Translations under genes and position numbers: made by a program
Part shown: piece after piece, positions 539 to 45,937 of the stretch
Layout: each line of letters starts with the position of its first letter
Position numbering within the stretch: the first letter of the stretch is position 1
Notes under the pieces: model-generated
What the model was told of the DNA's origin: nothing
Database searches by the model: none
The model's input: only the letters and a program-made list of their open reading frames with translations
NCBI RefSeq assembly: GCF_002549775.1
Contig: NZ_NMTR01000014.1
Span: forward strand, 1-64,000
Source of the DNA: Faecalibacterium langellae
GTDB lineage: Bacteria > Bacillota > Clostridia > Oscillospirales > Ruminococcaceae
Reading direction: 5' to 3'
Length of the DNA: 64,000 nt

Positions 539-703
539 GCTTTCGCAGAAAGCAGGCGCTGCAAATGCCGTTTTCCTTCACGACCCCATCCGTGAAAATG
601 GGGTTCAGAAACGCCCGCAGGCGTTTCTGAACCCCGAAATTTAAAATAATTTTTCCGCTGAAAATGGCTAGAGCGCAGCGGAAGCCATTCTAAATCGTTT
701 TAT
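539..703 (+). repeat. Family B covarying-hairpin repeat, copy 1
   Basis: It opens with a small hairpin GCTTTC-GCA-GAAAGC (539-553) and an ATGCCGTTTTCC block, then CGTGAAAA. The main hairpin follows, with 16 perfect base pairs (600-615 with 620-635) and a CGCA loop. An A/T-rich linker ending TTCCGCT, a second hairpin AATGGCT/AGCCATT, and the terminal AAATCGTTT complete it. The last bases overlap the stop codon of the uridine kinase gene on the other strand. Confidence 0.85.
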
Positions 704-1329
704 CCCCGGTTTGCCTTCTCGATCAGGGTGCGGATGTGGTGCGCCAGCATCTCCACGGCGGTGCTGTTCTCGCCGCCGTTGGGTACAATGATGTCTGCGT
801 TGCGCTTGCTGGGTTCCACAAAAGCCTCGTGCATGGGCTTGACGGTGGTCAGGTACTGATTGATGACGCTGTCCAGACTGCGGCCCCGCTCCTTCACATC
901 CCGCACCAGACGGCGCAGGATGCGCTCGTCGGCGTCGGTGTCCACATAGATCTTATAGTCGAACAGGGCGCACAGCTCCGGCTCCACAAAGGGCAGGATG
1001 CCTTCCACGATCAGCACCGGTGCGGGCTCGATGTGCTGTACCTTGTCGCTGCGGTTGTGGTTGGAGTAGTCGTACACCGGGCAGTCGATGGCGCGGCCTG
1101 CCTTCAGCTCCTGCAGATGGTAGATCAGCAAAGCGTTGTCAAAAGCATCCGGGTGGTCGTAGTTCAGCTTGCAGCGCTCCTCAAAGGGCAGCTCGTCGTG
1201 GCGCTTGTAATAGCTGTCGTGGGAGATCAGGCGCACTTCATCCTCGCCAAAACGCTCCTTCAGCCGCAGAGCAAGGGTGGTCTTGCCGCTGCCGGAGCCG
1301 CCTGCAATGCCAATGATCAGATTATTCAT
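700..1329 (-). CDS. udk: Uridine kinase
   Basis: A 209-residue cytoplasmic P-loop kinase that phosphorylates uridine (and usually cytidine) to the monophosphate in pyrimidine salvage. The Walker A motif GGSGSGKTT lies near residues 9-17, HDSYYK follows, and the NYDHPDAFD segment typical of uridine kinases is present. I place the start at 1329 (MNNLI), which has GGAGGG upstream with good spacing; an open frame extends to 1419 but lacks a ribosome site. The gene is transcribed away from cardiolipin synthase, and its stop overlaps the end of repeat B copy 1. Confidence 0.93.
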   Translation of the reverse strand: MNNLIIGIAGGSGSGKTTLALRLKERFGEDEVRLISHDSYYKRHDELPFEERCKLNYDHPDAFDNALLIYHLQELKAGRAIDCPVYDYSNHNRSDKVQHIEPAPVLIVEGILPFVEPELCALFDYKIYVDTDADERILRRLVRDVKERGRSLDSVINQYLTTVKPMHEAFVEPSKRNADIIVPNGGENSTAVEMLAHHIRTLIEKANRG

Positions 1330-1358
1330 AGGGGTCCCTCCTGCATCATCCTGCCGCT

Positions 1359-1392
1359 TTGGGTGGAAAAAAGGGCAGGAATGGATTATAAT
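1359..1392. promoter_or_regulatory. Possible promoters between udk and cls
   Basis: A near-palindromic TATTATAATA-like box at 1386-1394 could serve as the -10 element on either strand between these divergent genes. On the plus strand TGGAAA (1364-1369) lies 17 bases before TATAAT (1387-1392). The -35 match is weak, so this is only a suggestion. Confidence 0.35.
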
Positions 1393-1513
1393 AGGTGCAA
1401 AGCTGCCTGTCCGGGACACAGCGCCGGGCGGGCTTGTTCCTGTACATCATAACACAAACCGACACATTTTTACAGCCCCAGGGCTGCAAATGTGCGAGAT
1501 AAGGGAAAATGCC

Positions 1514-3133
1514 ATGCAGAAAAAACAATTTCAGCAAAATATGAAGGACAAGGTCCGGGTGTTTGAGGATGGCGGCATCCGCCTGCTCAAACGGGGACAG
1601 AAGGGCGTGGTACACGCTATTTTCAGCCGTTTTGGTCTGGTGCTGGTTCTGCTGCTTTTACAGGCGTTCGCGCTGTTCAGCCTGCTGCAGTGGTTCGGTG
1701 GGCTGCTGCCGCATTATTTTGGCGGCACCCTGCTGGTAACAGCGGCAATGATGGTCTATCTGCTCAATCAGGACATGGATAACAGCGTGCGCATCACATG
1801 GCTGGTGGTCACAGCGCTGATGCCGGTGCTGGGCGTGCCGCTGTTCTGGTACACCAAAAGCGATGTGGGCCACAATGCCCTGAAGCACCGCCTGCTGGAT
1901 CTGGAGGGACAGACCGGCGCCCGGCTGCCGCAGAATGAGCAGACCGTGGAGCTTTTGCAGGAGCAGGCACCCGAAGCGGTGCCACTGGCACGGTATCTGC
2001 GGGGCAAGGGCGGCGGCTTTCCGGTCTATGCCGACACGGTGGCCACCTACTTCAACGGCGGCGAAGCTATGTTCGATGAAATGCTGCGCCAGCTGGAAAC
2101 GGCAAAAAAGTACATCTTTCTGGAATATTTCATCGTGGATGAAGGCCTGATGTGGGGCCGCATTCTGGAAGTGCTGGCCCGCAAGGCGGCGCAGGGGGTG
2201 GATGTGCGTGTGATGTATGACGGCACCTGCGAGTTTTCCACCCTGCCGCGGGATTACCCCAGCCGGCTGGAAGCGCTGGGCATCCAGTGCAAGGTGTTCT
2301 CGCCGGTCACGCCCTTCGTTTCCACTCACTACAACTACCGCGACCACCGCAAAATTCTGGTCATTGATGGCCAGGTGGGCTTTACCGGCGGCGTGAATCT
2401 GGCAGATGAGTACATCAACCACATAGAAAAGTATGGCCGCTGGAAGGACTCGGCCCTGATGCTGGAAGGCGAAGGCGTGCGCTCCATGACGGCACTGTTT
2501 TTGCAGATGTGGAGCATCCTGTGCCAGCCGGAGTTTGAGCAGTTCCTGTCCGATCCCATCCCGGCGGCAGCAAACGCCAAGGGCTTTGTGGTGCCCTACG
2601 GAGACTGCCCGCTGGACGGTGAGCGGGTGGGCGAAATGGTGTACATGGATATGCTCAACCGCGCCCGGAAGTATGTGCACATCATCTCGCCGTATCTGAT
2701 TTTAGACGGCGAGCTGGAAACGGCCCTGCGCTTTGCGGCAGAGCGCGGTGTGGATGTGCACCTGATCCTGCCCGGCAAGCCGGATAAGTGGTTCGTTTAT
2801 GCACTGGCCAAGACCCACTACAAGGCGCTGCTTTCTTCGGGTGTGAAGATCAGCGAGTGGCAGCCCGGCTTTACCCATGCGAAGATCGTGATCGCCGACG
2901 GAGTGGAAGCTGTGGCGGGCACCATCAATCTGGACTACCGCAGCCTGTACCATCACTTTGAAAACGCGGTCTGGATGCGCGGCACCGACTGCATTGCCAA
3001 CATGGAAGCGGATTTTCAGGATACACTCACCCGGTGCCGCAGGGTGGAGCAGACGAGAGAAAGTATCTGGCAGGGCAAAAAGCTGCTGCATCTGGCGGGC
3101 ATCCTGCTCAAGTTTATTGCGCCGCTGGTGTGA
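1514..3133 (+). CDS. cls: Cardiolipin synthase
   Basis: A 539-residue membrane enzyme that condenses two phosphatidylglycerol molecules into cardiolipin and glycerol. Three hydrophobic segments occupy roughly residues 35-120 (the PLDc_N region). Two phospholipase D active sites follow: HRKILVIDG with a downstream GG, and HAKIVIADG with AGTINLDYRS. Both HxKxxxxD motifs are intact. The start at 1514 follows AAGGG; the frame stays open further upstream but nothing there looks coding. PgsA, which makes the precursor lipid, is encoded at 44,526. Confidence 0.93.
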   Translation: MQKKQFQQNMKDKVRVFEDGGIRLLKRGQKGVVHAIFSRFGLVLVLLLLQAFALFSLLQWFGGLLPHYFGGTLLVTAAMMVYLLNQDMDNSVRITWLVVTALMPVLGVPLFWYTKSDVGHNALKHRLLDLEGQTGARLPQNEQTVELLQEQAPEAVPLARYLRGKGGGFPVYADTVATYFNGGEAMFDEMLRQLETAKKYIFLEYFIVDEGLMWGRILEVLARKAAQGVDVRVMYDGTCEFSTLPRDYPSRLEALGIQCKVFSPVTPFVSTHYNYRDHRKILVIDGQVGFTGGVNLADEYINHIEKYGRWKDSALMLEGEGVRSMTALFLQMWSILCQPEFEQFLSDPIPAAANAKGFVVPYGDCPLDGERVGEMVYMDMLNRARKYVHIISPYLILDGELETALRFAAERGVDVHLILPGKPDKWFVYALAKTHYKALLSSGVKISEWQPGFTHAKIVIADGVEAVAGTINLDYRSLYHHFENAVWMRGTDCIANMEADFQDTLTRCRRVEQTRESIWQGKKLLHLAGILLKFIAPLV

Positions 3134-3185
3134 AAGACTCCTTCTGTCATGGCTGCGTAAGCAGACGGGAGAAGCTCTGAATACA

Positions 3186-3220
3186 AAAAGGCCCGCTGCC
3201 TTTCGACAGCGGGCCTTTTG
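3186..3220 (+). terminator. Intrinsic terminator after cls
   Basis: AAAAGGCCCGCTG pairs with CAGCGGGCCTTTT around a short loop, ending in a T run. Confidence 0.85.
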
Positions 3221-3246
3221 TTACCGATTTAAATAAAAATCAGCGC

Positions 3247-3537: not shown

Positions 3538-3672
3538 AGTAGTATCTCCTCTTTGTTAGTTCTTGCCCACGGAAGGATTGTAACCATACCTTTGGTTTTG
3601 GGACCATCGCGCTGATCAGTAAGCTTACCAGGGGCTTGAATGAATGGATGCCCTCGGATTGAGGACTTTCCT

Positions 3673-3701
3673 ATTGTACCGTTAATTTTAAAATTTGTCA
3701 A
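3673..3701 (-). promoter_or_regulatory. Promoter of the zinc-ribbon gene
   Basis: On the minus strand TTGACA (3701-3696), 17 bases, TACAAT (3678-3673). Transcription would start near 3666, leaving a 5' leader of about 130 bases. The remaining gap up to the ackA terminator at 3792 holds nothing else I recognise. Confidence 0.8.
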
Positions 3702-3791
3702 CCAAAAAACAAACCGACGGCCTTTTATTTGTGGATATGACACAATAAGAGGGACTTTCTTTGGTCAGTTTCACCGCTGCAGAAAAAGAAA

Positions 3792-3827: not shown

Positions 3828-3842
3828 ACAAAAAACTTTTGC

Positions 3843-6479: not shown

Positions 6480-6514
6480 CAAAAAATAATCGAAAAAATT
6501 TTATGCAGAACCCC

Positions 6515-13089: not shown

Positions 13090-13228
13090 AAGATGCCGTC
13101 TTTCACTGCGGCCCCTCCCGTGAAAAGGCGTTTGTCGCGGCCCGCAGGCCGCGACAAACGCGAAATAAAAAATAATTATTCCGCTAATTATGGCCAAAGC
13201 GAACGCGGCGGCCATTCAAAATCGTTAA
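13090..13228 (+). repeat. Family B covarying-hairpin repeat, copy 2
   Basis: Main hairpin: 15 perfect pairs, GCGTTTGTCGCGGCC (13138-13152) with GGCCGCGACAAACGC (13157-13171), CGCA loop. The linker AAAAATAATTATTCCGCT follows, then the second hairpin ATGGCC/GGCCAT and the end AAATCGTT. It fills the gap between the nif3-like gene and rqcH and ends directly before the rqcH ribosome site. Confidence 0.88.
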
Positions 13229-13243
13229 ACGAGGTAAACCACT

Positions 13244-14998
13244 ATGGCATTGGATGCCGCGACACTGGAACTGACGGCCCGGGAACTGAAAACCGTTCTG
13301 GCCGACGCCAAGATCGCAAAACTGTTTGAACCGACCCGCGATGAGCTGGTCATTACCCTGCGCACCCGCACGGACACCTACGCGCTGCTGCTGTCGGCCC
13401 GCAGCGGTTCCGCCCGGGTCTGCCTGACCGAAGAGACCTTTGAAAACCCGGAGACGCCGCCCTCCTTCTGTATGCTGATGCGCAAGCATCTCACCGGCGG
13501 CAAGCTGCTGGACGTGCGCATGGAGCCGGGGGACCGTATCGTGTACTTCGACTTCCAGTGCACCAACGAGATGGGCGACCTTGTGCGCAACACCCTGTGC
13601 GCCGAACTGATGGGCCGCTACTCCAATCTGGTTCTGGTGCAGAATGGCAAAATTATCGACGCCCTCAAGCGGGTGGATTTTGAGGACAGCGACATCCGGC
13701 AGCTGCTGCCGGGCCTGCCTTATACCACGCCGCCGAAACCTGCCCGGCCGGACTTCCTGCAGGTGAGCAGCGCGTCCATTGTGGCGGCGGCCTGCCAGCG
13801 CGACCTGCCGGTGGCCGATGCCCTCAATAAGACCGTGGCCGGTGTGGGCCCGGTGGTCTGCCGGGAAGCGGCATGGCGTGCCTTCGACGGCGAACACCTG
13901 ATCGCCAACGAGCTGACCGAGGAGCAGAAGCGCCGCCTGATGGCTTCCATCGACGAGCTGAAGGAAGAACACGACAACGGTGGCTGCCCCTGCAGCGTCA
14001 CCGACCCGGAAGGCAAGCCCATCGAGTACACCTTCTTCCGCCCGCAGCAGTACGGCGAAAAGTATCTTATTAAGGAATGGCCGTCCTTCAACGCCATGCT
14101 GGAAGGCTACTACGCCGAGAAGGACCGCGCCGAGCGCCTGCGCACCAAGAGCAAGGAACTGCACAAGGCCGTGCACAACATGTACGAGCGCGCGGTGCGC
14201 AAGCAGGCAGCCCGAAAAGAAGAACTGGCCGCCAGCGGCAAGAGCGAAAAGCTGCGTCTGTACGGCGAGCTGCTCTCGGCCAACCTCTATCTGGCTGAAA
14301 AAGGCATGAAAAGCATCACGGTCCAGAACTGGTATGACGACGGCAAAGAGGTGACCATCCCGCTGGACCTGCGGTTCACCCCCAGCCAGAACGCCCAGAG
14401 CTTCTTCAAAAACTACAAGAAGAAGCAGACCGCCGCCCGGATGCTGGTGGACCTGCTGGCCGAAGGCGAAAAAGAGATCGCCTATCTGGAAACGGTGCTC
14501 TACGAGGTGGAGACGGCCTCCGGCGAAGCTGCCCTGAATGAGATCCGGATGGAGTTGAAAAATCAGGGCTATCTGAAGTATTACAAGCAGCGGGATAAAA
14601 AGCAGAAGCCCGCAGATTTCCTGCGGTTTGTGTCCAGCGATGGCTTTGAGATTCTGGTGGGCCGCAACAACGCCCAGAACGACAAGCTCACCCTGCACAC
14701 CGCCCGTGGCAAGGACTTGTGGTTCCATGTGCAGAAGGCACCCGGCAGCCACGTCGTGGTCATGAGCCGGGGCGAGGATATCCCGGACACCACGAAGCAG
14801 GAAGCCGCCGAGCTGGCAGTCATCCATTCCAGTGCCTACAAGGCAGGTGCCGGTGCCAAAGTCGCGGTGGACACCACTGAGGTGAAGAACATCTGGAAGG
14901 CCAACGGTGCAAAGCCCGGCATGGTGCTGTACGAGGTGTACACCACGGTGTATGTTACGCCCCGGGACGGGCTGGCGGAACAGCTGAAGAAAAAATGA
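13244..14998 (+). CDS. rqcH: RqcH (Rqc2 / NEMF homologue, NFACT family)
   Basis: 584 residues, typical for the bacterial NFACT (formerly fibronectin-binding) proteins. RqcH binds stalled 50S subunits carrying peptidyl-tRNA and adds C-terminal alanine tails for degradation. Seen here: the N-terminal NFACT-N domain (residues 5-200), a central coiled-coil rich in K/E/R (about 280-440), and the C-terminal NFACT-R domain with GRNNAQNDKLTL and DLWFHVQKAPGSHVV. GAGGT precedes the ATG. The gene is bracketed by inverted copies of repeat B. Confidence 0.93.
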   Translation: MALDAATLELTARELKTVLADAKIAKLFEPTRDELVITLRTRTDTYALLLSARSGSARVCLTEETFENPETPPSFCMLMRKHLTGGKLLDVRMEPGDRIVYFDFQCTNEMGDLVRNTLCAELMGRYSNLVLVQNGKIIDALKRVDFEDSDIRQLLPGLPYTTPPKPARPDFLQVSSASIVAAACQRDLPVADALNKTVAGVGPVVCREAAWRAFDGEHLIANELTEEQKRRLMASIDELKEEHDNGGCPCSVTDPEGKPIEYTFFRPQQYGEKYLIKEWPSFNAMLEGYYAEKDRAERLRTKSKELHKAVHNMYERAVRKQAARKEELAASGKSEKLRLYGELLSANLYLAEKGMKSITVQNWYDDGKEVTIPLDLRFTPSQNAQSFFKNYKKKQTAARMLVDLLAEGEKEIAYLETVLYEVETASGEAALNEIRMELKNQGYLKYYKQRDKKQKPADFLRFVSSDGFEILVGRNNAQNDKLTLHTARGKDLWFHVQKAPGSHVVVMSRGEDIPDTTKQEAAELAVIHSSAYKAGAGAKVAVDTTEVKNIWKANGAKPGMVLYEVYTTVYVTPRDGLAEQLKKK

Positions 14999-15175
14999 CG
15001 ATTTGAAATGGCCGACGCGTTCGCTTTGGCCATATACAGCGGAATAATTATTTTTGATATTTGCAAAGCGGCAAAGCCTGCGGGCCTTGCCGCTTTGCGT
15101 TTTCACGGGAAGGGTCGTATCGGAAAACGGCATCTGATCTGCGCTGGCTCCCTGCGGGAGCGATCGCGCGGCAGC
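14999..15175 (-). repeat. Family B covarying-hairpin repeat, copy 3 (reverse orientation)
   Basis: Reverse of the other copies. Main hairpin: 15063-15078 with 15083-15098, 16 pairs including one G-T, loop TGCG (CGCA on the minus strand). The AAATCGT end starts immediately after the rqcH stop codon. At its far end it also carries the small GCTCCC-GCA-GGGAGC hairpin (about 15,150-15,165). Confidence 0.87.
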
Positions 15176-15532: not shown

Positions 15533-15885
15533 CGGCTGCAAAAGGCTTGTGCGATACAAGTCGTGCAGGCCAGCGATATGCGTAGATGCGGGAGGTTGTC
15601 ATCCGGCGATAGCTGCGATGGGTTATTTCCGCGGAGTATGTCCGATCTTAGAACCGGGCGAAAGAATTACTGACAGCGATGGAATACGTTCCCTCGGCAG
15701 AGAAGTTACTCCTCTGCGAAACGGGCGGAACCAATGTTCGGATTTGATTTGCTAATAGATTTCCGGGAGAACTGCCAAGCGGTTCACCGGTTTTTATAGT
15801 GCCAAATCGAGGAACACCCGGAACTGTGTAGAGCAATTTATCGGCTCGCCTAGGGCAAAATCAATTTTTTCAGGAGGCGTAAGCA
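15533..15885 (+). promoter_or_regulatory. Long structured leader of the S10 operon with a possible attenuator
   Basis: About 350 untranslated bases. Hairpins include GCAGAG/CTCTGC (about 15,696-15,717) and, at 15763-15790, CCGG and GAAC pairing with GTTC and CCGG, followed by five T, which has the form of an intrinsic terminator inside the leader. Ribosomal protein operons often have such leaders for autoregulation; the ligand here is unknown. Confidence 0.55.
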
Positions 15886-35647: not shown

Positions 35648-35666
35648 TAGAACGGAGGAATGGTAC

Positions 35667-36377
35667 ATGGTACGAGTGCTTGTGGTGGAAGATGAAGCCA
35701 ATATCCGCGAGATGATCGCGCTGAACCTGCGTCTTGCAGGCATGGAAGCGGTGGAAGCGGAGAGCGCGGAAGCCGCGCTGCCGCTGCTGGAACAGAAGCC
35801 GGGCTGCGACGCCGCCATTCTAGACGTGATGCTGCCGGGCATGAACGGCTTCTCGCTGTGCGAGACCATCCGCCGCACCGACCAGAAGATCGGCATCATC
35901 ATCCTCAGCGCCAAAGGGCAGGAGCAGGATAAAATTCGCGGCCTGTCCATTGGTGCCGATGACTATATGACCAAGCCCTTCAGCGTCAGCGAGCTGCTGG
36001 CCCGCGTGGAGGCGCTCTGCCGCCGCGTCAGCCGCAGCACCGGCGGCGAGGAAAAGGGCGAAAAGGGCGGCAGCCTGGGCATGCTCACCAGCGGCGATTT
36101 CGTGCTGGACGAGAACCGCCGCGTGCTGCTGAAGGCAGGCCAGCCCATCGAACTGACCCAGGTGGAGTTCCAGATCATGGAGCTGTTCTTCCGCAACCCC
36201 GGCATCGCGCTGGTGCGCGAGAAGATTTTGAAGGGCGTGTGGGGCGAGAACTACTTCGGTGATGTGAAGATCGTGGATGTGAACATCCGCCGCCTGCGCA
36301 TGAAGGTGGAAGACGAGCCCAGCCACCCGGCCCATATCCTCACGGTGTGGGGCTACGGCTACCGCTGGGAGGAGTGA
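35667..36377 (+). CDS. OmpR/PhoB-family response regulator
   Basis: 236 residues. Receiver domain with the acidic pair ED near residue 9, phosphoacceptor D53 (ILDVMLPG), S81 and K103 (TKPF). A winged-helix DNA-binding domain spans residues about 135-232 (LTQVEFQIMELF, VDVNIRRLRMKVE, VWGYGYRW). Start at 35667 with GGAGG eight bases upstream. The kinase partner is probably the gene at 37106, separated by repeats. Confidence 0.93.
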   Translation: MVRVLVVEDEANIREMIALNLRLAGMEAVEAESAEAALPLLEQKPGCDAAILDVMLPGMNGFSLCETIRRTDQKIGIIILSAKGQEQDKIRGLSIGADDYMTKPFSVSELLARVEALCRRVSRSTGGEEKGEKGGSLGMLTSGDFVLDENRRVLLKAGQPIELTQVEFQIMELFFRNPGIALVREKILKGVWGENYFGDVKIVDVNIRRLRMKVEDEPSHPAHILTVWGYGYRWEE

Positions 36378-36397
36378 CCTCTGCCCCTGCTGCGGCG

Positions 36398-36545
36398 GCG
36401 GCTGCCGTTTGCCATCCAAGCCTCTTCCTGTGAAAAGGGGACAGCGGAGCGTCCGCAGGCGTTCCGCTGTCCCAAACTTAAAAATTATTTTTCCGCTATT
36501 GATGCGCAGAGCAGCGCGGCGCGCATTCCCAATCGTCCGTTCCCA
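36398..36545 (+). repeat. Family B covarying-hairpin repeat, copy 4
   Basis: Main hairpin 36438-36453 with 36458-36473, 16 pairs including two G-T, CGCA loop. The linker TAAAAATTATTTTTCCGCT is conserved. The second hairpin is ATGCGC/GCGCAT instead of ATGGCC/GGCCAT, and both arms have changed together. It begins about 20 bases after the response regulator stop. Confidence 0.87.
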
Positions 36546-36554
36546 GCCATTGCC

Positions 36555-36940
36555 GCGCAGCGGTGCTGCGGGGGAAGTTTCTGCCCACCGCAAGCGGGCT
36601 GGACGCTCCGCTGGGCCAGAGGCAGGGAGGGGTGTTCCGACTCCCCCCTCCCTACCTCTGGACTCCACCCACCCCGCAACGGGAAAGGGGCTGCTCGCCC
36701 CTTTCAGACCCCAAAGAGGAAGTCGAACCGGAAAAAATCTAGCCGCTTCGCTCAGACGGGTTGCGGTGCCCAGCGTCCACTTCGTGCCTTGAGCGGCACT
36801 CGTGTCCTGCTGACCGCTGCCCCAACAGCTCCTCCCTGTATCCGCCGCTGGCGGCGGTCGTCGCCGTTGCACTTTTTTCTCGCTTCTCCGATTTGAAGGC
36901 CCCTCAGCCGCTGCGGCGGCAGCTCCCCGCAGGGGAGCGG
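36555..36940 (+). repeat. Family A multi-hairpin repeat, copy 2
   Basis: Contains the diagnostic CAGAGG(C)AGGGAGGGG / CCCCTCCCT(A)CCTCTG hairpin (about 36,617-36,660), the GAAAGGGGC/GCCCCTTTC hairpin, and the CCCCTCAGCCGCTGCGGCGG end. About 120 extra bases (36,752-36,872) interrupt it relative to copies 3 and 4. No gene is supported here. Confidence 0.82.
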
Positions 36941-37090
36941 GGTGCCAGCAGATGCCGTTTACCGTTACGGCCCTTCCCGTGAAAAAGTAAATCAGAAAAG
37001 CCCGCAGGCTTTTCTGATTTACAAATATATAAAAATAATTTTTCCGCTGCTATTGTCAGAGCGAAGCGGAGACAATTCTAAATCGTTTGA
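36925..37090 (+). repeat. Family B covarying-hairpin repeat, copy 5
   Basis: Main hairpin GTAAATCAGAAAAGCC (36987-37002) with GGCTTTTCTGATTTAC (37007-37022), 16 perfect pairs, CGCA loop. Second hairpin ATTGTC/GACAAT, again changed on both arms. Its AAATCGTTT end runs directly into the ribosome site of the histidine kinase gene. Confidence 0.9.
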
Positions 37091-37105
37091 AAGGAGGAGA
37101 CCGCC

Positions 37106-38530
37106 ATGCGAAGCGGTATCACCCGCCGGTGGCTGCGGGGCAGCCTGCTCATCACAGTGCTGCTGGTGCTGCTGGCCGAAGCTATGTTCCTGTACAGCTA
37201 CACCCGCAGTTATTACAACAGCGTCCAGCAGACCATGTACCGGCGGTTCTCCTCGGTGTCCGGCCAGCTGAAAATGTACACCGGCGACACCGCCCAGAGC
37301 ACGGCGGCCACCCGCAGTGTGGCGCTGCGCCGCATGGTGGAGCAGTTTGCCGACAAGGACAAGTACGAGTTCATGCTGCTGGACAGCTACGGCGGAGTCA
37401 TTGCGTCTTCCAGCGGCACCAGTGCCGAGGGCATCGTCACAAACAACGACTTTGAGCTGGCGCAGGACGCTTCCGACGGTCTGGGCGTGGCGGTCTACCG
37501 CACCCAGTCCGGGGAGCTGGTCATGGCGGGGTGCTATCTGGTGCCCTATGCCGCCGAGGACGTGGCGGCCATGCGCCTGGTCACCAGCCTTGCGCTGATC
37601 GAAGCTCAGATCAAAAACGCCATCCTCGCCAGCCTGGTGATCGTGGCGGTCATTCTGGCGTTCACCGTGATGTCCGGCTTGTACTTCATCCGCAGCATCG
37701 TGGTGCCGCTGGGGCAGGTGGAGCGCACCGCCGCCGGCATCGCCCGGGGCGAACTGGACGTGCGATTGCCGGTGACCGGCGACGAGCACGACGAGGTGGA
37801 CCGCCTGCGCGGCACCATCAACCAGATGGCCGAAGGGCTGGAGGAGACCGAGAAGATGAAGAACGAGTTCATCAGTTCGGTCTCCCACGAGCTGCGCACG
37901 CCGCTGACCTCCATCCGGGGCTGGGTGGAGACCCTGCGCACTCTGGACGACCCCACCGACGAGAACTACCGCAAGGGGCTGGAGATCATCAACAACGAGA
38001 CCGGCCGCCTCTATAATATGGTGGAAGAACTGCTGGACTTCAGCCGCCTGCAGAACGGCCGCATCCGCATGGACTGCCGCCCGCTGGACCTTGTGGCCGA
38101 GCTGACCGACGCGGTGCTGTTCTGTGAAGCGCGCATCCAGCGCGAGGGCCTTGTGCTGAGCTACAGCGAACCGGAGGAGATGATCCCGGTCTACGCCGAC
38201 CCGGACCGCCTGCGGCAGGTGTTCATCAACATTCTGGACAACGCCATCAAGTATTCCGCACCCGGCGGCCGCATCACGGTCAAGCTGTGGGCAGGCGAGT
38301 ACAAAGCCTTTGTGGAAATTCTCGATCAGGGCCGCGGCATCCCGCCGGAGGACCTGGAGAACGTCAAGACCAAGTTCTACAAGGGCAGCAACTCGGTGCG
38401 CGGCAGCGGCATCGGCCTTGCGCTGGTGGATTCCATCATGACCGCGCTGGACGGCACCATGGACATCAAGAGCACGCTGGGCCGGGGCACGGTGGTCACC
38501 CTGGGTCTGCCGCTGTACCATAAGGCATAA
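37106..38530 (+). CDS. Membrane sensor histidine kinase
   Basis: 474 residues. First transmembrane segment about 12-34, an extracellular sensor region to about 170, second transmembrane segment about 172-196, then HAMP (to about 250). H-box SHELRTPLTS with H261; N-box DNAIKYSAP; G1 DQGRGIPP; G2 GSGIGLALVD. Pairs with the response regulator at 35667 and resembles PhoR/WalK-type kinases without a PAS domain. AAAGGAGG precedes the ATG. Confidence 0.93.
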   Translation: MRSGITRRWLRGSLLITVLLVLLAEAMFLYSYTRSYYNSVQQTMYRRFSSVSGQLKMYTGDTAQSTAATRSVALRRMVEQFADKDKYEFMLLDSYGGVIASSSGTSAEGIVTNNDFELAQDASDGLGVAVYRTQSGELVMAGCYLVPYAAEDVAAMRLVTSLALIEAQIKNAILASLVIVAVILAFTVMSGLYFIRSIVVPLGQVERTAAGIARGELDVRLPVTGDEHDEVDRLRGTINQMAEGLEETEKMKNEFISSVSHELRTPLTSIRGWVETLRTLDDPTDENYRKGLEIINNETGRLYNMVEELLDFSRLQNGRIRMDCRPLDLVAELTDAVLFCEARIQREGLVLSYSEPEEMIPVYADPDRLRQVFINILDNAIKYSAPGGRITVKLWAGEYKAFVEILDQGRGIPPEDLENVKTKFYKGSNSVRGSGIGLALVDSIMTALDGTMDIKSTLGRGTVVTLGLPLYHKA

Positions 38531-38593
38531 AAAGAAGTTTTTTCACAATTCTGTGTTAAAATAAAGGGAAAATAAATCCGATAGGAGAACCCA

Positions 38594-39541
38594 ATGAATC
38601 AACCCAACAAGGAACGTTTCAAGACCAGCGTCGGCGGGCAGGCGCTGATGGAAGGCGTCATGATGCGCGGCCCGGAGCGCATCTGCTGCGCGGTGCGCAA
38701 GCCCGACGGCACCATCGAGACCAAGATCGACCCCGTGAAGCACCACGGTGTGTGGACCAAAATTCCCCTTGTGCGCGGTGCCATTTCCATGATCGAGAGC
38801 CTCATCGTGGGCTACCGCTACATGATGTACTCGGCCCAGGTGAGCATGGGCGACGACTACGACCCCGCCGAGGAGGAGACTGCCTTTGAAAAATGGGTGG
38901 GCGAACACCTGGGCGAAAAGGCCGAGAATGCCCTGCTGGCCGTGGCGGCTGTGCTGGGCGGCTTGCTGGCGATCCTGCTGTTCACGGTGCTGCCCACCTT
39001 CCTCGTGGGCGGCGTGGACCACTTTGTGGCGCTGGGCCGCTGGGGCAAGGTGGTGCTGGAAGCACTGCTCAAAGTGGGCATCTTCCTGGCCTACATGGTG
39101 GGCATCTCTAACATGAAGGAGATCCACCGCGTGTTCGAGTACCACGGTGCCGAGCACAAGACCATTGCCTGCTACGAGGCGGGCGACGAGCTCACCGTGG
39201 AGAATGTGCGCAAGTACACCCGCTTCCACCCGCGCTGCGGCACCAGCTTTTTGATTTTGGTGGTCATCGTCAGTGTGTTCCTCTACAGCGTGCTGCCCTG
39301 GGGCAGCATCGGTCTGCGGGTGGTGTGCAAGCTGCTGCTGCTGCCGCTGGTCATGGGCATCAGCTATGAGCTGCTCAAGTGGTGCGGCCGGTCAGATAAC
39401 TGGGCCACCCGCATCATCCGGCAGCCCGGCATCTGGGTGCAGCACCTGACCGTGTTTGAGCCGGACGACAGCATGATCGAAGTGGCCATTGCCGCCGTGA
39501 CGCCCGTCCTGCCCGAGAACCCGGAGGATGGCAAATGGTAA
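38594..39541 (+). CDS. DUF1385 membrane protein (YqhQ-like)
   Basis: 315 residues. SVGGQALMEGVMMRGPE at the start and the HGAEHKTIACYEAG and RFHPRCGTSFL segments are hallmarks of DUF1385. About four to five transmembrane segments lie between residues 105 and 290. Conserved histidines and cysteines suggest metal binding, but no function is known to me. Overlaps prmC by seven bases, a pairing common in Firmicutes. Confidence 0.92.
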   Translation: MNQPNKERFKTSVGGQALMEGVMMRGPERICCAVRKPDGTIETKIDPVKHHGVWTKIPLVRGAISMIESLIVGYRYMMYSAQVSMGDDYDPAEEETAFEKWVGEHLGEKAENALLAVAAVLGGLLAILLFTVLPTFLVGGVDHFVALGRWGKVVLEALLKVGIFLAYMVGISNMKEIHRVFEYHGAEHKTIACYEAGDELTVENVRKYTRFHPRCGTSFLILVVIVSVFLYSVLPWGSIGLRVVCKLLLLPLVMGISYELLKWCGRSDNWATRIIRQPGIWVQHLTVFEPDDSMIEVAIAAVTPVLPENPEDGKW

Positions 39542-40515
39542 CAGCTGGTATGACCCCGCGCGAAGCCGTGCGGGAAGCAGAAAACCGCCTGACCGCTGCC
39601 GGCTGTCCGGACGCGGATTTTGATGCGCGGGAGTTGTTCCGGCTGGCATCCGGGCGGGACATGCGCATCTCGGACCGGCCCCTGACCGCAGAAGAAGCGG
39701 ACAGGCTGGAAGCCTTGTGCAGCCGCCGCGCGGCCCGGGAGCCGCTGCAATACCTGTGCGGCAGCTGGAGCTTTCTGGACTTTGAGCTGGCCGTGGGGCC
39801 CGGTGTGCTCTGCCCCCGGGCGGACACCGAGGTGGTGGCCGAAGCGGCCGCGCAGGCTGTGGCGGACATTGCCACGCCGAAGGTGCTGGACCTCTGCGCA
39901 GGGACCGGCTGCCTGGGGCTGGGCGTCAAGCGCTTTTGTCCTACTGCGCAGGTGGCCTGTGTAGAAAAAAGCCCGGAAGCCTTTGCGTATCTGGAAAAGA
40001 ACGCCCGCTGTGCACTGGCCGGGCAGGGCAGGCAGACCGAGAACCTGCTGGAGCCCACTGCTTTTGAGCAGGCGGACGCCCCGGCATTTGATTGGGGCCC
40101 TGCGCTGAACGCCCTCAAGGCAAAGCCCGCCTATGCCGTACAGCCGGTACAGGGGGATCTGTTCACCTATTGGGAAACCCTGCCGGAAGGGCAGCTGGAC
40201 CTGATCGTGTCCAACCCGCCGTACCTCACCGCTGCCGAGATGCAGCAATTGCAGCCGGAAGTGGCGCAAGAACCTGCCATGGCGCTGGAAGCAGGGGAGG
40301 ACGGCCTTGTGTTTTACCGCGCCCTTGCGCAGCATTACCGGCAGGCCCTGCGTCCCGGCGGCGCACTGGTGCTGGAGATCGGCTGGCAGCAGCGGCAGGC
40401 TGTGACCGACCTGCTGGCCGAAAACGGCTGGGCCGACATCGAATGCCGCAAAGACTACGGCGGCAACGACCGGTGCATCATCGCCCGGCGGCCGCAAATA
40501 AAATTGGAAAAATAA
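39535..40515 (+). CDS. prmC: Release factor glutamine methyltransferase
   Basis: 326 residues against about 280 in E. coli. Methylates the GGQ glutamine of RF1/RF2. N-terminal helical domain to about 85; SAM motif VLDLCAGTGCLGLG; catalytic NPPYLT. Roughly 35 extra residues (GQGRQTENLLEP through LNALKAKP, about 165-200) lie between the SAM motif and NPPY. No prfA follows here. Translation is probably coupled to the DUF1385 gene. Confidence 0.93.
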   Translation: MVTAGMTPREAVREAENRLTAAGCPDADFDARELFRLASGRDMRISDRPLTAEEADRLEALCSRRAAREPLQYLCGSWSFLDFELAVGPGVLCPRADTEVVAEAAAQAVADIATPKVLDLCAGTGCLGLGVKRFCPTAQVACVEKSPEAFAYLEKNARCALAGQGRQTENLLEPTAFEQADAPAFDWGPALNALKAKPAYAVQPVQGDLFTYWETLPEGQLDLIVSNPPYLTAAEMQQLQPEVAQEPAMALEAGEDGLVFYRALAQHYRQALRPGGALVLEIGWQQRQAVTDLLAENGWADIECRKDYGGNDRCIIARRPQIKLEK

Positions 40516-40527
40516 AACAACTTCCTG

Positions 40528-40555
40528 TTGTAATATTTTGATTTTGTGTTATACT
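40528..40555 (+). promoter_or_regulatory. recA promoter
   Basis: TTGTAA (40528-40533), 16 bases, TATACT (40550-40555). I see no Bacillus-type LexA box (CGAAC-N4-GTTCG) around it. Confidence 0.65.
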
Positions 40556-40617
40556 ATAGAAGAAAGTAAAACACAGCCCGTTTTCTGTGGGCAAAAAGCA
40601 TAAAGGAGCAGCACGCT

Positions 40618-41799
40618 ATGGCAAAAAATCAGAACACTGTCGCCCCGGCAACCAAAAAGACCGGCGCGGAAGCCAAGAAGGACGCTCTGGCCACCGCCCT
40701 GGCCCAGATCGAAAAGCAGTTCGGCAAGGGTGCCGTCATGAAGCTGGGCGACAACGCCGCCATGCAGGTGGATTCCATCTCCACCGGCAGCCTGGGCCTG
40801 GATATGGCGCTGGGCGTGGGCGGTGTGCCCCGTGGGCGCATCGTGGAGGTGTACGGCCCGGAGTCCAGCGGTAAGACCACGCTGGCGCTGCACGTTCTGG
40901 CCGAGGCCCAGAAGAAAGGCGGCGAAGTGGCCTTCATCGACGTGGAGCACGCGCTGGACCCCGTCTATGCCGAAGCACTGGGCGTGGACATCAATAACCT
41001 GTTGGTCAGCCAGCCGGACACCGGTGAGCAGGCCATGGAGATCTGCGAAGCACTGGTGCGCTCCGGTGCCATCGACGCCATCGTCGTGGACTCGGTGGCT
41101 GCCATGGTGCCCCGTGCCGAGATCGAGGGTGAGATGGGCGAGAGCCACGTGGGCCTGCAGGCCCGTCTGATGAGCCAGGCCATGCGCAAGCTGACTTCCG
41201 TCATCGGCAAGACCAACACGGTCTGCATCTTCATCAACCAGCTGCGCGAGAAGGTGGGCGTCGTCTACGGCAGCCCGGAGGTCACCACCGGCGGCCGCGC
41301 CCTGAAGTATTATTCCTCGGTGCGTATCGACATCCGCCGCGTGGAAGGCCTGAAGGATTCCTCCGGCCAGTTCATCGGCAACCACACCCGTGCCAAGATC
41401 GTCAAGAACAAGGTGGCCCCGCCGTTCCGTGAGGCCGAGTTCGACATCATGTTCGGCGAAGGCATCTCCAAGGTGGGCGAACTGCTGGACCTGGGCGTCA
41501 AGCTGGGCATCGTGCAGAAAAGCGGTGCGTGGTTCAACTATGGCGACATCCGCCTGGGCCAGGGCCGCGACAACTCCAAGCAGTTCCTGAAGGATAACCC
41601 CGAGATCGCCAACGACATCGAGGGCCAGATCCGCGCCAACGCCGACAAGCTGTATGCTTCCCGCCGCCCGGCAGGCAAGGCCGCTGCTGCGCCCGCCGAC
41701 GAAAAGGCCGAGGCACCCGCACAGGACGCCAAGGAGCCGGTGGTCAAGGCCCCTGCCCGCAGCAGCGAGAGCGAGCTGGACATCATGGTGGAGGACTAA
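40618..41799 (+). CDS. recA: Recombinase RecA
   Basis: 393 residues, longer than usual by an Ala/Glu/Lys-rich C-terminal tail. Walker [10 protein letters not shown]; Walker B in [24 protein letters not shown] and the DNA-binding loop region are intact. Carries out strand exchange and activates the SOS response. The recX start codon follows the stop directly. AAAGGAGC upstream. Confidence 0.99.
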
Positions 41800-42321
41800 A
41801 TGTCCTTTTACCGGAAAAATTACCGCCCGCGCCGGGACGGAGAGGAGCCGGAAAAGTGTGCCGACCCGGCCAAGGCCCGCGCCCGGGCGCTGGACGCCCT
41901 TGCGGCCCGGGAGATGACCAGCGGCCAGCTGTACGAGCGGCTGTGCGTCCGCTTCACCGAGCAGGCTGCCGCCGAAGCCGTGGCCGAAATGGTGGAGCTG
42001 GACTACGTCAACGATGACCGCTATGCCGAAGCCAAAGCCCACAGTCTGCTGGCGGCCCGCAAGAGCCGCCGCGCCGCCGCCCAGAACCTGCGCCAGAAGG
42101 GCCTGAACGCCCAGCAGATCGAGCAGGCGCTGGAAAGCGTCTACGCCCCGGACGAGGACGGCGAAAGCCCGGAGCTGGAGGCCGCCGCCGCGCTGGTGCG
42201 CAGCCGCTACAAAAACAAGCTGGCGGCAGGCCGCCGCGACCTTGTGGTGGCGGCACTGCAGCGGCGCGGGTTCGCGTATGCGGTGGTGAAGGAAGCGATC
42301 CGCAGGGCGGAGGAAGAATGA
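41800..42321 (+). CDS. recX: Regulatory protein RecX
   Basis: 173 residues of three-helix repeats; binds RecA filaments and modulates them. ALDALAAREMTSGQLYERL and YVNDDRYAEAKAHSLL are typical RecX segments. It starts at the base after the recA stop, with its GGAGG inside the recA end, so the two are coupled. Confidence 0.92.
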   Translation: MSFYRKNYRPRRDGEEPEKCADPAKARARALDALAAREMTSGQLYERLCVRFTEQAAAEAVAEMVELDYVNDDRYAEAKAHSLLAARKSRRAAAQNLRQKGLNAQQIEQALESVYAPDEDGESPELEAAAALVRSRYKNKLAAGRRDLVVAALQRRGFAYAVVKEAIRRAEEE

Positions 42322-42330
42322 CGTTCTGTT

Positions 42331-42414
42331 AGGGACGCTCCGCTGGGGACGCTCCGCTGGGGACGCTCCGCTGGGGACGCTCCGCTGGGGACGCTCCGCT
42401 GGGGACGCTCCGCT
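42331..42414 (+). repeat. Six tandem copies of a 14-base unit
   Basis: GGGGACGCTCCGCT repeated six times (first unit AGGGACGCTCCGCT). The unit is the 5' edge of repeat family A, present only once in the other copies, so the edge has expanded here. Confidence 0.95.
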
Positions 42415-42632
42415 GGGCCAGAGGTAGGGAGGGGTGTTTCGACTCCCCCCTCCCTGCCTCTGGACTCCACCCACCCCGCAACGAGAAAGTGGCTGCTCGC
42501 CCCTTTCAACCCCAAAGGAGAAGTCGAAGCGGAAAAATGCTAGCCGCTTCGCTAAACGCATTTTTCGCGCTTCTCCGATTTGAAGGCCCCTCAGCCGCTG
42601 CGGCGGCAGCTCCCCGCAGGGGAGCGGGGGCG
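42401..42632 (+). repeat. Family A multi-hairpin repeat, copy 3
   Basis: Diagnostic hairpin CAGAGGTAGGGAGGGG / CCCCTCCCTGCCTCTG (here C-A is restored to a full pair by T...G wobble at the centre), then ACTCCACCCACCCCGCAACG, a CGGAAAAATGCTAGC / GCTAAACGCATTTTTCG region and CCCCTCAGCCGCTGCGGCGG. Closest to copy 4. Confidence 0.85.
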
Positions 42633-42945
42633 CCCTCTCCGTCACCTTCGGTGACACCTTGTCCCCTTTTTGTCGCTGCGCGACATCTTCCCCCGACCGG
42701 GGGAAGTCTTTCAAAGGGAGAGGCAAGAAGCACTCCCATTACGCCCTTGGCACCCTTTCAAAAGAGTATCAAGAAACATTTCCTCCACGGTCTTGGCTCT
42801 CCCTTCGGGAGAGCTGGCAAACCCGAAGGGTTTGACTGAGAGGGCGAAAGCCCCCTTCGGGACAGACTCCCCCGGCCGGGGGAGGTGGCACGAAGGGCCA
42901 GAAGGGGAACAGCTGGCGTTGCAAAGCATCTGAGAGGGGGTGCGC
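42628..42945 (+). mobile_element. Cluster of CCCTCTCCGTC-type hairpin elements
   Basis: Two hairpin-rich modules in tandem: 42,632-42,725 (GCCCTCTCC ... GGGAGAGGC ends) and 42,790-42,935 (GCTCTCCC ... AGAGGG, with CCCCCGGCCGGGGG). Similar modules lie at 45,145 and 47,312. They look like non-autonomous inverted-repeat elements, partly degraded. No gene seen. Confidence 0.6.
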
Positions 42946-42974
42946 CCCGGAGTGCTGCCCGTTCTCTCCGCTGA

Positions 42975-43147
42975 CGCGATGCTCCCGCAGGGAGCCAGCG
43001 ACAGCAGATGCCGTTTACCGCTGCAGCCCCTTTCGTGAAAATGCGTTTGGAGTGCCCCGCAGGGCACGACAAACGCGAAATATAAAAAGAACAGTTCCGC
43101 TGAATATGGCCAGAGCGCAAGCGGAGGCCATTTTAAATAGTCAAAAG
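42975..43147 (+). repeat. Family B covarying-hairpin repeat, copy 6
   Basis: Small GCTCCC-GCA-GGGAGC hairpin (42981-42995), then the main hairpin 43043-43057 with 43062-43076: 15 positions with two central mismatches. The 3' arm GGGCACGACAAACGC would pair perfectly with a GCGTTTGTCG start like copy 2, while the 5' arm resembles copy 8. Second hairpin ATGGCC/GGCCAT. Lies just upstream of rimO. Confidence 0.85.
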
Positions 43148-43181
43148 CAACCCTCAAAAGAGAAAGAGAGTATTATCCCCT

Positions 43182-44507
43182 ATGAAAATTGCGTGTATTT
43201 CCCTCGGCTGCCCGAAGAATCAGGTCGATCTGGACGTGATGGTGCACATCCTGCTGTCCGCCGGTCACGAGACCGTGGCCGACCTGGCCGAAGCCGATGT
43301 CATCCTTGTCAACACCTGTGGCTTCATCGAGAGTGCCAAGACCGAGGCCATCGAGAACATCCTCGAAGCCTGCTCTTACAAGCAGCAGAACCCGGACCTG
43401 AAGGTCATCGTCACCGGCTGTCTGGCCGAGCGCTACCGCAGCCAGATCGAGGAGGAGATCCCCGAGGTGGACGCTGTGGTGGGCTGCGCCTCCAACAAGG
43501 CCATTGATACCATCGTGGCCCGCCTGTTCCACGGCGAGGACCATCTGGAAAGCTACGGCGCGAAGAAGGACTTCCCGCTGGGCGGCAAGCGCGTCATCGG
43601 CACGCCTGCCCACTATGCGTACTTAAAGATCGCCGAGGGCTGCAACAACCGCTGCCACTACTGCGCCATCCCCGCTATCCGCGGCCCGCTGCACAGCCGC
43701 GACATGGCCGACTGCGTGGCCGAGGCCCGCTGGCTGGCCGGTGAGGGCGTCAAGGAGCTCATCGTTGTGGCCCAGGACCCCACCGCCTACGGCGAGGACT
43801 GGGGCAAGCCCGGCAGCATCTGCGAGCTGCTGGACAAGCTGAACAAAATTCAGGGTCTGGAATGGATCCGCATCATGTACGCCTACCCTGAGCGCATCAC
43901 CGACGACTTTATCGCCGCCATGAAGCGCAACGACAAGGTGGTGCCCTATCTCGACCTGCCCATCCAGCACTGCAACGACACCATCCTCAAGAACATGAAC
44001 CGCCGCTCCAACCGCGCCGAGCTGCTGGACGTCATCGGCAAGCTGCGCTGCGAGATCCCGGGCATCACTCTGCGCACCACCCTGATCGCGGGCTTCCCCG
44101 GCGAGACCGAGGAGCAGTTCGAGGACCTGTGCAACTTCGTCAAGGAAGTGCAGTTCGACCGTCTGGGCTGCTTTGCTTATTCTGCTGAGGAGAACACCGT
44201 GGCTGCCAAGATGGACGGCCAGATCGAGCAGGAAGTCAAGGACAAGCGCGCCGAGCTCATCATGCAGATCCAGACCGGCATCATGGCCCAGAAGCAGGCC
44301 GACAAGGTGGGCCAGACCGTCCGCGTGCTCTGTGACGGCATCGACGAGGAGAGCGGCCTGTACCTGTGCCGCACCATGGGCGATGCGCCCGAGGTGGACG
44401 GCAACGTGTGTGTTTCCAGCGAGGAACCGCTGTACCCCGGCCAGTTCTACGATGTGCTGGTGGACGACAGCGACCTCTACGATCTGTATGGTACTGTCGC
44501 AAAATAA
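43182..44507 (+). CDS. rimO: Ribosomal protein S12 methylthiotransferase RimO
   Basis: 441 residues. A radical-SAM enzyme that adds a methylthio group to an aspartate of uS12. ISLGCPKNQVD marks RimO rather than MiaB; further cysteines for the auxiliary cluster follow (NTCGF, TGCLA). The radical-SAM motif is CNNRCHYC, and a TRAM domain ends the protein. Only a weak A/G-rich ribosome site precedes the ATG. Followed closely by pgsA. Confidence 0.95.
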   Translation: MKIACISLGCPKNQVDLDVMVHILLSAGHETVADLAEADVILVNTCGFIESAKTEAIENILEACSYKQQNPDLKVIVTGCLAERYRSQIEEEIPEVDAVVGCASNKAIDTIVARLFHGEDHLESYGAKKDFPLGGKRVIGTPAHYAYLKIAEGCNNRCHYCAIPAIRGPLHSRDMADCVAEARWLAGEGVKELIVVAQDPTAYGEDWGKPGSICELLDKLNKIQGLEWIRIMYAYPERITDDFIAAMKRNDKVVPYLDLPIQHCNDTILKNMNRRSNRAELLDVIGKLRCEIPGITLRTTLIAGFPGETEEQFEDLCNFVKEVQFDRLGCFAYSAEENTVAAKMDGQIEQEVKDKRAELIMQIQTGIMAQKQADKVGQTVRVLCDGIDEESGLYLCRTMGDAPEVDGNVCVSSEEPLYPGQFYDVLVDDSDLYDLYGTVAK

Positions 44508-44525
44508 CGAATTGGAGGAATCTGT

Positions 44526-45140
44526 ATGAATCTACCCAATAAACTCACCCTGACCCGCATCATTCTGGTGCCGGTGTTCATGATCTTCGTCTCCCTCACC
44601 ACGGTGAGCGGCAGCGCAGACGGCACCTTCCAGCCGGTGTATTACCTGATCGCGGGCATCATTTTTGCCATCGCCAGCTTCACCGATTTTCTGGACGGCC
44701 ATCTGGCCCGCAAGTGGCACATGGTGACCGACTTCGGCAAGTTTGCCGATCCGCTGGCCGACAAGCTGCTCACCACCGTTGCCTTCATCTACATGATGCG
44801 GGACGGCGTGTGCAGCCCGGTGGTGCTGTGCATCATCCTGGCCCGCGAGTTCGCAGTGTCCGGCCTGCGCATGATTGCCGCCGGTGCCAAGGACGGCAAG
44901 GTCATCGCTGCCAACATGTGGGGCAAGGTGAAGACCGTACTGCAGATGCTGAGCATCATCTTCTATTTCTTTGGTCTGTCCTTTGCCACCATGTCGGCCA
45001 CCGGCGTGGAGCAGGCCGCCCGGCAGATCATCGTGCTGAGCATTTCCATCGTGCTGTGCTGGCTGGTGGCTGCCGTCACCGCTATCTCCGGCATCAAGTA
45101 CCTGTGGGATAACCGCAGCTTCATCAACACCGCAAAGTAA
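44526..45140 (+). CDS. pgsA: CDP-diacylglycerol-glycerol-3-phosphate 3-phosphatidyltransferase
   Basis: 204 residues, about five transmembrane segments. Makes phosphatidylglycerol phosphate. The CDP-alcohol phosphotransferase motif DGHLARKWHMVTDFGKFADPLAD is present as DG-x2-AR-x8-G-x3-D-x3-D. LPNKLTLTRI at the start is typical. It lies 19 bases after rimO, and TTGGAGG precedes the ATG. Confidence 0.96.
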   Translation: MNLPNKLTLTRIILVPVFMIFVSLTTVSGSADGTFQPVYYLIAGIIFAIASFTDFLDGHLARKWHMVTDFGKFADPLADKLLTTVAFIYMMRDGVCSPVVLCIILAREFAVSGLRMIAAGAKDGKVIAANMWGKVKTVLQMLSIIFYFFGLSFATMSATGVEQAARQIIVLSISIVLCWLVAAVTAISGIKYLWDNRSFINTAK

Positions 45141-45144
45141 AAAG

Positions 45145-45285
45145 AACCCTCTCCGTCAGCGCTTGCGCGCTGCCACCTTTCCCGAGGGGCGAGGCTTCAG
45201 CACTGAGATGAAATTCTCGGTTTGGCGAAGGCCTCCCCCCTTTCGGAGAAGCTGGCAATGCCGAAAGGCATTGGCGGAGAGGGTT
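45145..45285 (+). mobile_element. Inverted-repeat (MITE-like) element after pgsA
   Basis: 141 bases bounded by AACCCTCTCCG and CGGAGAGGGTT, an exact 11-base inverted repeat, with internal hairpins. The final GGGTTTTG may also serve as a terminator. No coding capacity. Confidence 0.7.
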
Positions 45286-45304
45286 TTGTAATAGGAAAGA
45301 TATC

Positions 45305-45790
45305 ATGAAAAAATTCGCTGACACTGCCCGCCGCGTGCTCTCCATCGCTTTGAACCTGTTCATCGTGTGCGCAGAGCCCATTGCCCTGCCCATGAGCTGG
45401 GACTGGGGCAAAGAGCAGATGTTCCTCTTTTACATCGAGGACTCCAACATCTTTGCGGCCTGCGTCTGCGCGCTGGTGGCGGCGGCACAGCTGGTGTGTA
45501 TCTTTACGGGCAAAGAGCTGCCCCGCTGACTGCGCACCCTCAAGTACATTGCCGCCTGCTGCCTGACCATGACATTGCTCACGGTCATCTTCGTGTTGGG
45601 GCCCATGTATGAGGACGGCAACGGCTGGTACATCATGCTCTGCACCAGCTCCATGCTCTACCACCACCTGCTCAACCCGCTGGCGGCCATCCTGTCGTTC
45701 ACGGTGCTGTGGTGCATCGCTATCCTGGGGATGGATTATCTTTACGCCTGGCTGCTCTGGAAGGGGAACGGCGGGAAGAAGAAACAGTAA
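45305..45790 (+). pseudogene. Membrane protein gene interrupted by an in-frame TGA
   Basis: One reading frame of 161 codons is broken only by TGA at 45527-45529 (LPR-stop-LRTLKY). Both halves are clearly coding in the same frame: the first has FYIEDSNIFAACVCALV, the second TVIFVLGPM and LYHHLLNPLAAILSF, together a four-pass membrane protein of an uncharacterised family. The surrounding motif suggests a lost tryptophan (TGG to TGA). It could be a recent nonsense mutation, a sequence error, or two separate pieces; an ATG at 45569 could start the second half. Confidence 0.75.
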
Positions 45791-45799
45791 AGAAAAGCA

Positions 45800-45937
45800 G
45801 CATCCAAAGGTTCTGACCCCTGCTGTGAAAAATGAGAACCAGAAAATCCGCAGATTTTCTGGTTCTCAAAATTTATAAAAATATTTCCGCTAAAATAGCC
45901 AAAGCGTACGCGTCGGCTATTCTAAATTGTTTTTCAG
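45800..45937 (+). repeat. Family B covarying-hairpin repeat, copy 7
   Basis: Main hairpin GAGAACCAGAAAATC (45834-45848) with GATTTTCTGGTTCTC (45853-45867), 15 perfect pairs, CGCA loop. Second hairpin AATAGCC/GGCTATT. The end AAATTGTTTTT touches the stop codon of the minus-strand foldase gene. Confidence 0.88.

Follow-up and report, generated by a model that had tools for sequence, protein, structure and literature searches.

The window analysed here, 64,000 nucleotides (nt) of contig NZ_NMTR01000014.1 (positions 1 to 64,000 of the forward strand) from the genome of Faecalibacterium langellae, carries seven copies and one remnant of a small hairpin repeat. Faecalibacterium is a common and important commensal bacterium of the gut. 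The initial annotation had described the copies as sharing loops and a linker around stems that differ from copy to copy and still pair; the finding is real and stronger than first stated. An element begins with a spacer ending in GTGAAAA, followed by a hairpin with a stem of 15-16 bp and the loop CGCA (H2), an AT-rich linker ending in TTCCGCT, a smaller hairpin (H3) and the end AAATCGT. Many copies also show a 5' hairpin.

A covariance model built from the seven window copies (R1) recovered them where they had been reported with 123-155 bits, and the remnant with 24.6 bits. Copy 1 (562..702, + strand, 155.3 bits) has its 5' hairpin from about 539, and its 3' end lies on the stop codon of a uridine-kinase-like gene (700-1419, - strand, PF00485). 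Copy 2 (13090..13229, + strand, 144.7 bits) lies upstream of an NFACT-family gene on the + strand (13244-14998), whose stop codon is overlapped by the 3' end of copy 3 (14994..15136, - strand, 154.9 bits). An S10-Clostridia ribosomal leader (window 15575-15661, 39 bits) is found a few hundred bases from copy 3. Copy 4 (36399..36540, + strand, 131.3 bits) follows a response-regulator gene, and copy 5 (36949..37090, + strand, 150.4 bits) precedes a histidine kinase gene at 37106. The parts of copy 5 are the 5' hairpin at about 36920-36940, H2 at 36987..37022 (+ strand, 16 bp, loop CGCA) and H3 at 37052..37076 (+ strand, ATTGTC/GACAAT); read on the - strand, its H2 is a terminator-like hairpin followed by TTTTTCAC. 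Copy 6 (43005..43145, + strand, 137.5 bits) is located upstream of rimO; in sister genomes the element is missing or different there. The 3' end of copy 7 (45795..45934, + strand, 123.5 bits, H2 at 45833-45868) lies at the stop codon of a trigger-factor-like gene (45934-47340, - strand). The remnant (63074..63161, + strand, E 2.9e-4) lies among tRNA genes and has retained the lead-in and the 5' arm, while its 3' arm is broken and linker and H3 are gone.

GTGAAAA and CCGCAG were invariant in all seven copies, with the preceding C replaced by T in copies 4 and 7. All 15-16 bp of H2 were formed in every copy but copy 6, with one G-T pair in copy 3 and two in copy 4; copy 6 had two adjacent mismatches, G.A and A.G. 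H3 covaried among the copies as well, and the small 5' hairpin, present in copies 1, 3, 5 and 6, had a different stem in each. The stems thus differ and yet pair, but they are not wholly unrelated as had been supposed, because loose classes exist. Copies 2 and 6, both of class 2, form one class with the remnant, copy 2 having the perfectly paired form GTCG/CGAC; copies 1, 5 and 7 have CAGAAA in common.

Pairing and occurrence across genomes

The search of the window's own genome (2.82 Mb) with R1 yielded at least 105 matches at E ≤ 3e-7 and 113 at E ≤ 0.1. Because the best 150 of 735 candidates were scored, the copy number is a lower bound. Ten 20-kb stretches without listed matches served as a control; the best E was 0.098 (one match), with none at E ≤ 0.01. 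Matches at E ≤ 0.001 were obtained in 12 of 61 genomes, all of them Faecalibacterium (12 of the 31 genomes of the genus, own included), and in none of the 30 genomes from other genera. Eight genomes had high copy numbers, each with at least 52 copies; by NFACT protein, the seven genomes closest to the window are the seven other high-copy ones. Four of eight relatives with low or no copy number, rescanned with their best 150 candidates each at E ≤ 0.01, had matches (4, 3, 2 and 1 copies). Among the 61 genomes the repeat has so far been observed in Faecalibacterium alone, and it probably spread within one part of the genus, partly as head-to-head inverted pairs.

No element copy was among the five matches reaching an Rfam 15 gathering score in the window, and a scan of 36350-37150 at E ≤ 5 gave sub-threshold matches only. 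A known RNA family was rejected on these grounds; the initial annotation, too, had recognised no described family. The literature searched held no description of this repeat, with the proviso that the supplements of PMC8040213, in which human microbiomes were surveyed for structured RNAs and thousands of candidates reported, could list it.

Pairing was examined in a genome-wide alignment (A2) of 126 distinct rows, which were fitted to the model, favouring it; weak matches are among them, as are a few antisense shadows of palindromic stems. The covariation score was 0.672, whereas shuffles gave 0.159 and slid partners no more than 0.124; two-sided change occurred at 15 of 16 H2 pairs and at all seven H3 pairs. 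In 77 own-genome stems, preselected for at least 13/15 paired positions, the Watson-Crick fraction was 0.975 and dropped to 0.468 after the 3' arms had been re-dealt. The pairing is not due to chance. Mean identity among these 77 stems was 47% in the arms, 96% in the loop and 73% in the eight bases before the stem. The apical halves recur (32 distinct) and the basal halves are many (62 distinct); 66 of the 77 have another stem within 3/16 positions. A search by pairing through about 1.7 Mb from the own and sister genomes located 158 elements with 127 distinct 16-nt arms; the own genome contributed 92 of these elements, with 85 distinct arms.

Copies were then anchored by hidden Markov models of the flanks, built from the paired elements, together with one of seven listed loops, so that copies showing none of these loops were not counted. 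A recognisable stem (at least 9/15 paired) was present in 142 of 147 anchored copies and none in 5. With 18 copies of the mismatch-bearing class 2 left out, 101 of 124 copies had 15 perfect Watson-Crick pairs, which is not the picture of stems decaying without compensation. The mispairs among the 1860 H2 pairs of these 124 copies were 21 G.T, 8 A.C and 16 others. This lean of G.T over A.C had a p of 0.024 (own genome 16 vs 4, p 0.012). H3 showed no such lean, with 6 vs 6 mispairs in the 113 copies (of 136 parsed) that were retained for having most of their pairs formed. Loop anchoring superseded a strand test with fixed 36-nt intervals (7 vs 5; 29 of 115 copies usable). Strong covariation does not necessarily imply RNA function.

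Some further features of the element were seen by eye. CCGCT/AGCGG is a candidate pseudoknot, and many H3 loops contain short GNA or GNRA-like inner hairpins (GCGAAGC, GTGAAAC, GCGCAAGC) with apparent covariation; GCGAAGC is a DNA hairpin of unusual stability. In three matches of about 230 nt (L081:1801-2030, L056:4753-4984 and L058:15375-15612) the H2 region is longer owing to a structured insert of about 90 nt, which bears hairpins of its own. In four copies (L055:1801-1961, L056:7116-7255, L064:7903-8040 and L065:1801-1944) another repeat, CGACGACCGCCGCC...CAGGGAGGAG or close variants, interrupts H3 near its loop.

Stems at orthologous sites

Automatic ortholog grouping merged several loci into a group of 19; loci A to J and sites 1 and 2 were therefore listed by hand. 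These 12 hand-chosen loci gave 62 comparisons, which share genomes and are not independent, with a total of 992 H2 pairs. While 721 pairs were the same, 246 of the 271 changed pairs were changed on both arms and 25 on one. In the 42 comparisons with a downstream flank of 94-98% identity a hand count gave 118 two-arm vs 13 one-arm changes. There was no H2 change whatever at loci B, E and J, nor in three of the six comparisons at D.

Stem differences between sister genomes were evident at the rimO site of copy 6. Apart from the own genome, the element is present there in G003, G023, G006 and G027, and none was found in G010, G016, G005 and G007. H3 and the 3' ends are closely similar in G003, G006 and G027, while the H2 stems are three different ones. 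Same-site differences between sister species reached 10-18 of the 36 bases of H2 while H3 was the same. H2 differed at 10-17 of 36 and H3 at 0-1 of 27-28 positions at locus A, at C (G003-G027) and at site 2. The converse, an unchanged H2 (0/36) and an H3 differing at 7-10 of 27-28 positions, was seen at loci B, C (G003-G006), D and E. Resolved by segment as differences per aligned positions, locus D (G003-G027) had 1/40 in the spacer, 0/36 in H2, 0/27 in the linker, 8/28 in H3 and 4/150 downstream. The corresponding values were 21/40, 10/36, 2/27, 1/28 and 5/151 at locus A (G003-G006), 6/40, 14/36, 6/27, 8/28 and 4/150 at locus F (G003-G023), and 13/41, 17/36, 5/26, 0/28 and 23/151 at site 2 (own-G029).

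Because H2 and H3 change separately and the changed pairs are overwhelmingly two-armed, we concluded that stems are renewed as units. This two-arm, unit-wise renewal at orthologous sites is the new point of the analysis. The initial annotation had left the choice between selection on structure and replacement of stems as units: the same insertions in sister genomes speak for replacement, and of selection on the folded strand there is the G.T lean in H2 and none in H3.

Gene ends and presumed mobility

The position of elements relative to genes was determined with simple longest-open reading frame (ORF) calls, which are crude; for 45 elements the overlap with such an ORF exceeded 90 nt. Among the 69 own copies whose end was usable, 26 ended -10 to +15 nt from the stop codon of a convergent ORF, where 2.5% are expected from random gap points, and 12 ended -10 to +50 nt from the start of a same-strand ORF (expected 6.8%). 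With the same ORFs, elements in gaps were enriched between convergent genes (67/145 vs 128/552). Read in the sense of the convergent gene, the order is stop codon, H3, AT-rich linker, H2 and TTTT(T)CAC. Where an element abuts a convergent gene its complementary strand would form the 3' untranslated region of that gene, and this strand could offer an intrinsic terminator made of H2 and U4-5. A scan for terminator-like sites in 35500-46500 listed 16, headed by the - strand H2 of copies 7 and 5. Because the 3' end is often at a convergent stop and the complementary strand is terminator-like, the element resembles a mobile terminator cassette like SPRITE of Streptococcus pneumoniae. Judged from sequence, it resembles in its workings a modular, predicted terminator-type interspersed repeat.

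The repeat also looks mobile. Among the 105 own-genome matches all 13 neighbour pairs less than 300 nt apart are head-to-head, and the presence of elements, head-to-head pairs included, varies between genomes with 95-99% identical flanks. In the roughly 1.7 Mb from the own and sister genomes, neither a larger parent element with separated halves nor one with an internal gene was found, whereas a MITE would have terminal inverted repeats matching those of an autonomous element, and a target duplication.

Renewal of stems and related systems

Our best explanation is that of a mobile-looking interspersed repeat, non-coding and non-autonomous, which measures about 140 nt (more with the optional 5' hairpin), whose stems would be renewed as units by template switching or gene conversion and which would act as a terminator at convergent genes; for the whole of it we estimate a probability of about one half. 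Replication through a hairpin would most likely switch template to another copy by way of the conserved lead-in, loop and linker and thereby copy a whole foreign hairpin, i.e. a short-tract ectopic gene conversion. Smaller mismatches would then be removed when one arm serves as the template for the other (quasipalindrome template switching). Copying between the arms cannot by itself bring in a new stem, so the copied tract would have to span the entire hairpin and derive from another template. Template switching was proposed to create and maintain perfect stems in RNA hairpins (Monttinen and Loytynoja, PMC8794818, in the part available), and we infer that it may apply to the Faecalibacterium repeat. 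Recurring stems fit donor copying: GCAATGCCGGAGCGTC is present in seven copies, and one of the two locus-F stems is also a recurring one.

In class 2, the pattern TTTG...CCGCAG...CAAA retrieved 49 copies, some of which may be orthologues, and 36 of them carry a two-base mismatch with GAG opposite CGA. Eight are perfect, five with TCG/CGA, matching the 3' arm, and three with GAG/CTC, matching the 5' arm; one is half-changed and four are otherwise different. Thus the small patches in class 2 look arm-templated. A search of eight genomes that allowed eight combinations at the patch found only GAG or TCG in the 5' arm (79 copies).

Several observations weigh against this explanation. The class-2 mismatch itself could have arisen as a chimera between two perfect classes. 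In 31 genomes no second exact copy was found of two renewed stems, the odd ones that G027 has at locus C and G006 at locus A, so that a donor with later change, or another source, must be assumed; stems related to that of G027, with 2-3 mismatches, occur at other loci in six of eight genomes, G027 included. Change was limited to a single hairpin at D only. Loci A and E (25/40) and site 2 also differ in the 5' spacer, and loci B and C in the downstream flank; at F and in both G comparisons the two hairpins have both changed. Presence/absence sites that were compared showed no clear target duplication or clean insertion, and one 'empty' site keeps the element end and looks like a deletion, which hence accounts for part of the presence/absence. 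No mobilising enzyme was found in a search restricted to the Y1 family. With regard to termination, copies 4 and 6 were not listed, so that two of the four copies in 35500-46500 pass the scan, and the excess of G.T over A.C in H2 is on the + strand, opposite to the prediction for a - strand terminator.

The G.T excess is what would be expected if stems drifted pair by pair through G-U intermediates, with the + strand RNA or a single DNA strand selected for its fold. Single compensated pairs between close orthologues, e.g. at loci D and H and between G023 and G006 at G, fit such stepwise compensatory evolution too. However, H3 lacks the lean, and the strongly different stems at loci A, C, F and G, within flanks of 94-98% identity, show 5-11 two-arm changes and 0-2 single ones. 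We consider a stepwise origin unlikely.

Slightly less likely still is that an HUH (RAYT-like) or other nuclease acts on the hairpins as single-strand DNA and would both move the element and swap hairpins by cutting at their feet. Conserved loop and flanks around a free stem sequence, the head-to-head pairs and the REP-like palindromic units would suit such an enzyme. Yet Y1_Tnp (PF01797) had no match in G006 and G030, two of the high-copy genomes, and only a fragment in G000, while it is full-length in G012, where no repeat copy was found. There were 16 Y1 matches in other genomes, and one of 11 loci read had an element beside it. Thus the distribution of Y1 does not track the family, and a RAYT/IS200 partner was rejected; the enzyme search covered Y1 only, and about 1.7 Mb of sequence yielded no element with an internal gene. 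The single adjoining case is a full-length IS200-like gene in G023 (L122, about 1474-2236). The only Y1_Tnp match of the own genome is an IS200-like transposase remnant (L001, about 1380-1680; profile positions 88-121 of 121).

Whole hairpins might also be actively replaced by a dedicated process, for instance a nuclease or reverse transcriptase anchored on lead-in, loop and linker, so that stems would be hypervariable yet perfectly paired; this we regard as improbable. The least credible alternative is that members of several stem subfamilies arrived independently at shared preferred sites and that the copies are not truly orthologous, for which the preference of the 3' end for gene ends and the differing 5' spacers at A, E and site 2 could be cited; it is disfavoured by the segment counts, because one hairpin is kept and the other changed, as at D and site 2.

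RNA evolution has long posed the question of how extended stems can change in sequence and remain perfectly paired. With about a hundred parallel copies in the own genome, and orthologous sites in sister species, at several of which whole stems differ and the flanks serve as an internal clock, template switching and selection should be separable by strain sequencing. If the placement at gene ends reflects termination, the repeat would serve this gut commensal as a portable terminator by which 3' ends are shaped.

Among known elements, bcr1 of the Bacillus cereus group is a mobile-looking intergenic repeat of about 155 bp with a conserved fold. Unit exchange of its stems is not known. SPRITE, BOX and RUP of Streptococcus pneumoniae are likewise small, dispersed and structured; SPRITE, with its 18-bp duplex, has the look of a Rho-independent terminator and is found between convergent genes more often than expected, and BOX is modular (PMC3049150, in the part available). 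They differ in anatomy and host genus, and the available descriptions mention neither copy-differing stems nor exchange at orthologous sites. With REP, BIME and REPIN sequences and their RAYT (PMC3116915, PMC2817692 and PMC3733652, as far as available) the Faecalibacterium repeat shares palindromic structure, high copy number, inverted pairs and, as roughly tested with the crude ORFs, extragenic placement. The base after the AAATCGT end is T or C, so that it can form the CGTC tag which the title of PMC3733652 mentions, and some copies end in AATCGTC. REPs, however, are 20-40 bp long, in contrast to about 140 nt with two or three hairpins and no matching Y1 distribution here. The template-switch hairpins of PMC8794818, in its available part, are alike in that both arms change in one copying event; they concern RNA genes (microRNA, rRNA), whereas in Faecalibacterium whole hairpins are apparently exchanged between dispersed repeats.

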